Source of the DNA: Thioalkalivibrio sp.
GTDB lineage: Bacteria > Pseudomonadota > Gammaproteobacteria > Ectothiorhodospirales > Ectothiorhodospiraceae
Direction of reading: 5' to 3'
NCBI GenBank assembly: GCA_011389655.1
Contig: JAABTX010000004.1
Span: forward strand, 36,388-100,387
Length of the DNA stretch: 64,000 nt
The notes under the pieces were generated by a model. The model saw nothing but the letters and a program-made list of their open reading frames with translations, was not told where the DNA came from and ran no database searches. A program made the position numbers and the translations under genes. This document shows, piece after piece, positions 47,724 through 48,216 of the stretch (position 1 is its first letter; each line of letters opens with the position of its first letter).

Positions 47724-48216
47724 GTGGGAGCGGCCTCTGGCCGCGATAGGGCCCTTTGGGGACGCAACCATGTTCGATCGCGGCTGGAAGCCGCTCCTAC
47801 GGGGGGCGTGGGTCTCGTGGGAGCGGCCTCTGGCCGCGATGGCGCCCTGCGGGGTCGCAACCGTGTTCGATCGCGGCTGGAAGCCGCTCCTACGGGGGGG
47901 CGGGTCTCGTGGGAGCGGCCTCTGGCCGCGATGGCGCCCTGCGGGGACGCAACCGTGTTCGATCGCGGCTGGAAGCCGCTCCTACGGGGGGCGTGGGTCT
48001 CGTGGGAGCGGCCTCTGGCCGCGATGGCGCCCTGCGGGGACGCAACCGTGTTCGATCGCGGCTGGAAGCCGCTCCTACGGGCACCGTGGGTCTCGTGGGA
48101 GCGGCCTCTGGCCGCGATGGGGCCCTGCGGGGACGCAACCGTGTTCGATCGCGGCTGGAAGCCGCTCCTACGGGGGGCTTGGGTCTCGTGGGAGCAGCCT
48201 CTGGCCGCGATGGCGA
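47724..48216. repeat. Tandem array of five ~93-bp units plus a partial sixth, each a head-to-head pair of REP-type hairpins (BIME-like)
   Basis: gtgggagcggcctctggccgcgat begins at 47724, 47817, 47909, 48002 and 48095, with a variant copy (gtgggagcagcc...) at 48188: periods 93, 92, 93, 93, 93. Each full unit also has gatcgcggctggaagccgctcctac. Confidence 0.95.

Follow-up and report, generated by a model that had tools for sequence, protein, structure and literature searches.

The divergent gap between a fumC-like gene and purB in Thioalkalivibrio sp. (a window of 64,000 nucleotides, positions 36,388 to 100,387 of contig JAABTX010000004.1, assembly GCA_011389655.1, hereafter genome G000) holds a tandem array that is very probably a BIME-2-like series of REP dimers (REPINs) of the GTAG-1 type, derived from a single ancestral insertion followed by growth and homogenisation in place. 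Specifically, one head-to-head REP dimer would have entered the gap in the ancestor of a six-species clade, as its position and sequence similarity suggest, presumably through the action of a RAYT. A tandem duplication of this dimer along with a few flanking bases would have followed in the line leading to G000 and its sister G003. In G000 the array would then have grown to five units plus a stub, and exchange between units through ordinary RecA-type recombination, or slippage during replication, would have kept the copies alike. The resulting array would be tolerated spacer DNA that moves two promoters a few hundred bp further apart, most likely without a dedicated regulatory function.

Tandem Repeats Finder detects one array at 47723-48215 (period 93, 5.3 copies, 94% matches, score 888), and 47723-48216 of the window resolves into five units of 92-93 bp and a 30-bp stub, all on the forward strand, confirming the first-pass annotation, which had described five near-identical units of about 93 bp plus a degraded partial sixth between divergent fumC and purB. 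In each unit, GTGG-GA-GCGGCCTCTGGCCGC-GAT is separated by a linker from its inverted copy, ATC-GCGGCTGGAAGCCGC-TC-CTAC, after which comes a short spacer. Unit 1 (47723-47815, 93 bp; forward REP, linker, reverse REP and spacer) has the most divergent linker of the array and is followed by unit 2 (47816-47907, 92 bp), unit 3 (47908-48000, 93 bp), which is identical to the Tandem Repeats Finder consensus, unit 4 (48001-48093, 93 bp), whose spacer is GGGCACCGTGGG, and unit 5 (48094-48186, 93 bp). The truncated unit 6 (48187-48216, 30 bp) retains the forward REP, mutated in its stem (GGAGCAGCC), and the first part of the linker; its second REP is gone, and the spacer-like remnant CGGGGGGC comes next. 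Pairwise identity between units is 91-98% (mean 0.947), and the 11 REPs of the array alternate strictly (><><><><><>), with a forward REP at both the first and the last position. Unit 1 folds into a single long nested hairpin (-56.8 kcal/mol, z = -4.5) that none of 200 shuffled sequences equals, and the entire array, folded as single-stranded DNA, reaches a z of -9.2.

Other readings of the array sequence were rejected. A 185-bp period reported by Tandem Repeats Finder is a product of the 92-bp unit and does not reflect a higher-order repeat, and the comparison with Rfam returns sub-threshold microRNA-type hairpin matches only, judged to arise by chance from the inverted repeats. Long open reading frames span the array, its 93-bp period being divisible by three, and the reading frame of purB is open from 47724; a coding sequence is ruled out by the PurB family model, which aligns from the ATG at 48288. 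As the assembly (3.46 Mb) is divided into 367 contigs and often breaks at REP arrays, the count of five units could be off; REP arrays seem to be a main cause of the assembly breaks, and array lengths in G000 may be collapsed.

The designation of the array as BIME-like, proposed from the window alone, is borne out by hundreds of REP copies elsewhere in the genome. Specifically, the REP core occurs 422 times exactly and 441 times with one mismatch allowed, vs 0 for a reversed control pattern, which excludes a chance origin of the array. Every full copy follows the scheme GT(A/G)G-GA-GCGGC..-..GCCGC-GAT and thus has the GTAG-type end, the two unpaired bases, the stem-loop and the 3-bp tail of the GTAG-1 family, an assignment made by the text description of PMC3733652. 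The resolved clusters sit in gaps between called genes, as expected of a high-copy and mostly intergenic element, with the limit that the gene caller masked REPs and could miss intragenic ones. About 100 head-to-head dimers are found in 741 kb of G000, and a lone dimer occupies the orthologous site of G016; both observations point to a dimer that probably spread as one unit. The window array, made of near-identical dimers including their flank, has the composition of a tandem REPIN cluster or BIME-2. Across 30 genomes of the genus, REP cores number 422 in G000, 195 in G003, 75 in G014 and 73 in G027, with lower counts in others (13 in G016, 13 in G023, 3 in G017) and none in 20 genomes. The same REP family hence ranges from 0 to more than 420 copies within one genus, and the pattern of RAYT genes does not match this range. 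Two further observations concern these genomes: 13 of the 38 contig ends examined over the whole G000 genome lie at most 150 bp from a REP, and the two-contig genome G029 has a tandem series of four RAYT-like genes at intervals of about 1.4 kb (G029:C1:1652183-1657129).

The history of the array can be read from the orthologous gap. In the congeners examined, fumC and purB are divergent. The gap holds five units and the stub in G000, two units in G003 (period 94, the two copies 95% identical), one unit in G016 and, as judged by eye, decayed REP remnants in G023, G028 and G019, and there is no REP material in the gaps of the outgroups G012, G010, G015, G027 and G017. Copy number at the locus therefore varies between species (one, two and five), as the first-pass annotation anticipated for a mobile REP. 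In the FumC tree, the six species whose gaps contain REP material group together as a clade (97/98), and such material is seen in that clade only. Orthology of the insertions rests on position, spacer and whole-unit matches because linker identity between G000 and G003 is only 0.59-0.66, which does not exceed that of unrelated linkers; linker identity thus failed as a proof of orthology, and whole-unit matches were used in its place. Within G003, the window unit matches best at the orthologous locus, which in G016 shares the top rank; reciprocally, the G003 unit finds its best match outside its own locus in the orthologous gap of G016, ahead of about 70 other REP places in G003. Among the spacers of the array, that of unit 4 bears the closest likeness both to the right flank of the single G016 copy and to the spacer inside the G003 array; against the latter it ranks first of 67 G000 spacers. 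This likeness suggests that the first duplication, together with a piece of flank, is older than the split between G000 and G003. Named relatives retrieved through FumC reach 64% identity at best and were too distant for the comparison of gaps. In the incomplete genomes G014 (locus L251) and G008 (locus L252), a motif search finds fumC/purB-like motifs at unexpected distances.

The way in which one dimer became five is illuminated by the linkers. Among 100 head-to-head linkers from the 741 kb, median identity is 0.90 within clusters and 0.59 between clusters, from which it follows that arrays mostly grow in place from one founder dimer; the array studied here ranks with the longest, yet is no outlier. 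The close likeness of linkers within arrays, together with the unit identity, supports the earlier proposal of a recent amplification or homogenisation. At this locus, linkers are on average 0.92 identical within G000 and identical within G003, and this combination of likeness within and unlikeness between species is, to judge from the sequences, the pattern of concerted evolution, although fast linker turnover could also produce it. For comparison, fourfold sites of fumC differ by 17% between G000 and G003, and the units of G000 differ by about 5%. The presence of REP dimers or remnants in the gap of six species could evoke a hot site at which units inserted singly, a scenario whose probability is close to negligible, as the units have in common a linker and a spacer that are absent elsewhere (other linkers in the sampled 741 kb reach 0.71 identity at most, and other whole-unit matches in the genome 83%) and recur at a constant period, whereas independent insertions would bring different linkers. 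Amplification by a RAYT transposase, through rolling-circle type copying of a >< > module rather than through recombination, is rather unlikely. The 11 REPs of the array do begin and end with a forward REP, as in the proposed module, and G000 carries three Y1_Tnp (RAYT-like) genes, one of which, on contig C336, scores 86.7 bits against the NCBIfam REP_Tyr_transpos cut-off of 80, the other two falling just below it (76.0 and 72.5); a RAYT-like gene also gives a weak match to TnpAREP 4er8 (E 0.0013). However, many other G000 arrays have even REP numbers, the flank-derived bases held by the spacers are equally explained by tandem duplication, and scanning of the whole contigs finds no core REP beside any of the three genes. 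Moreover, orthologues of the RAYT on contig C349 also occur in genomes that are nearly REP-free, and the idea that this orthologue tracks REP number is not upheld (G016, 89% identical, has 13 REPs; G017, 76% identical, has 3).

The position of the array between divergent genes is a minority one but not unique. The 65 REP clusters in the 741 kb are distributed over 22 convergent, 23 same-direction and 7 divergent gaps and 13 sequence edges, and the six further divergent-gap clusters include arrays with five and with six REPs. Gene calls came from a purpose-written simple codon-score caller, and single assignments may be off. Among gaps of at least 60 bp, REPs are held by 36% of the convergent (22/61), 11% of the same-direction and 9% of the divergent ones (7/81), percentages that may be off in absolute terms, the 741 kb being stretches picked for holding REPs; convergent gaps differ from the rest (P = 3e-6), and divergent gaps do not differ from same-direction ones (P = 0.67). 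The preference of REPs for downstream or convergent sites, remarked on initially, thus holds in G000 and in the literature (PMC3733652), but per available gap, divergent occupancy is about the same as same-direction occupancy.

Of the two divergent neighbours, purB (48288-49667, forward strand, ATG at 48288) encodes an adenylosuccinate lyase well identified by its family model (NCBIfam PRK09285, 728 bits vs a cut-off of 446). The fumC-like gene (46304-47677, reverse strand, chosen ATG at 47677) belongs to the class II fumarase/aspartase superfamily; its product has class II fumarase as best match, but the score falls under the cut-off of the fumarase model (NCBIfam, 502.6 vs 664.75) and also under the aspartate ammonia-lyase subfamily cut-off (495.7 vs 510), so that any assignment to one enzyme is tentative. 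The candidate purB promoter, CTGAAC-16 nt-TATAAT at 48229-48256 on the forward strand, lies outside the array, and its -10 box at 48251-48256, 35 bp beyond the array end, is the TATAAT previously noticed just to the right of the repeats. The putative -35 element CTGAAC is retained in G016, G023 and G028 and reads CTGAAG in G003, and the TATAAT is present in REP-less congeners too. On the other side, the candidate fumC -10 box, TAGAAT at 47706-47711 on the reverse strand, is conserved beside the REP slot, which would place the -35 at the border of unit 1. Both promoters are assigned, tentatively, from sequence and conservation, and a consensus promoter scan requiring a better -35 yields no promoter-like site.

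These data bear on the possibility that the array is a regulatory element, in which hairpins or a bound protein (gyrase, IHF) insulate the promoters or tune them through supercoiling, at a level set by copy number. The array does lie within the gap common to two divergent promoters, unit 1 extends to where the -35 of the putative fumC promoter would be, the folding potential is strong, and gyrase binding is reported for E. coli BIME-2 (PMC2817692). Conversely, both -10 boxes are outside the array and are kept in relatives whether these have one unit, two, decayed ones or none, which leaves the regulatory role once envisaged for the array unsupported; the decay of the dimer in G023, G028 and G019 suggests that it is dispensable, REPs are not enriched at divergent sites, and the consensus scan offers no promoter-like site. 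A regulatory element is thus very unlikely, and it is extremely unlikely that dimer copy number is under selection as a slow, recombination-driven tuner of fumC/purB expression, for example by absorbing negative supercoils. Some regulatory effect is conceivable, but tolerated spacer DNA is the preferred and simplest reading. The array matters little as a new element, the locus being an ordinary one with hundreds of relatives in the genome; its value is that one orthologous gap is seen in empty, decayed, one-, two- and five-unit states among related species, a clean case of in-place growth from a single REP dimer to a tandem array and of the homogenisation that follows. The multiplication step is unusually clear here, and it is the very step of array growth for which recombination and RAYT-driven copying are the rival models of the literature.

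Among known systems, the GTAG-1 family has the same GTAG/GTGG terminus, unpaired GA dinucleotide, G+C-rich stem-loop, GAT tail and HH dimers; it has been reported in Thioalkalivibrio sp. K90mix, often forms clusters (Di Nocera et al. 2013, PMC3733652), and is found mostly between convergent and same-direction genes (PMC3733652). The window array differs in that its forward REP ends in GTGG and in its divergent setting. With BIME-2 of Escherichia coli it has in common several alternating tandem REPs in an intergenic gap, although the REP family there is GTAG-3; RAYT-driven growth of such arrays by rolling-circle type copying has been proposed by Nunvar et al. (PMC2817692). A further parallel is offered by the tandem clusters of near-identical REPINs with their flanks in Pseudomonas fluorescens SBW25 (Bertels and Rainey 2011, PMC3116915), which are likewise extragenic REP doublets repeated together with flanking sequence. 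The largest SBW25 cluster has an extra single REP, as the window array does, with four REPINs plus one REP against five plus one here, and three SBW25 clusters adjoin RAYTs, whereas the window array does not. The array is, in sum, a further member of the BIME-2 or tandem REPIN cluster kind.
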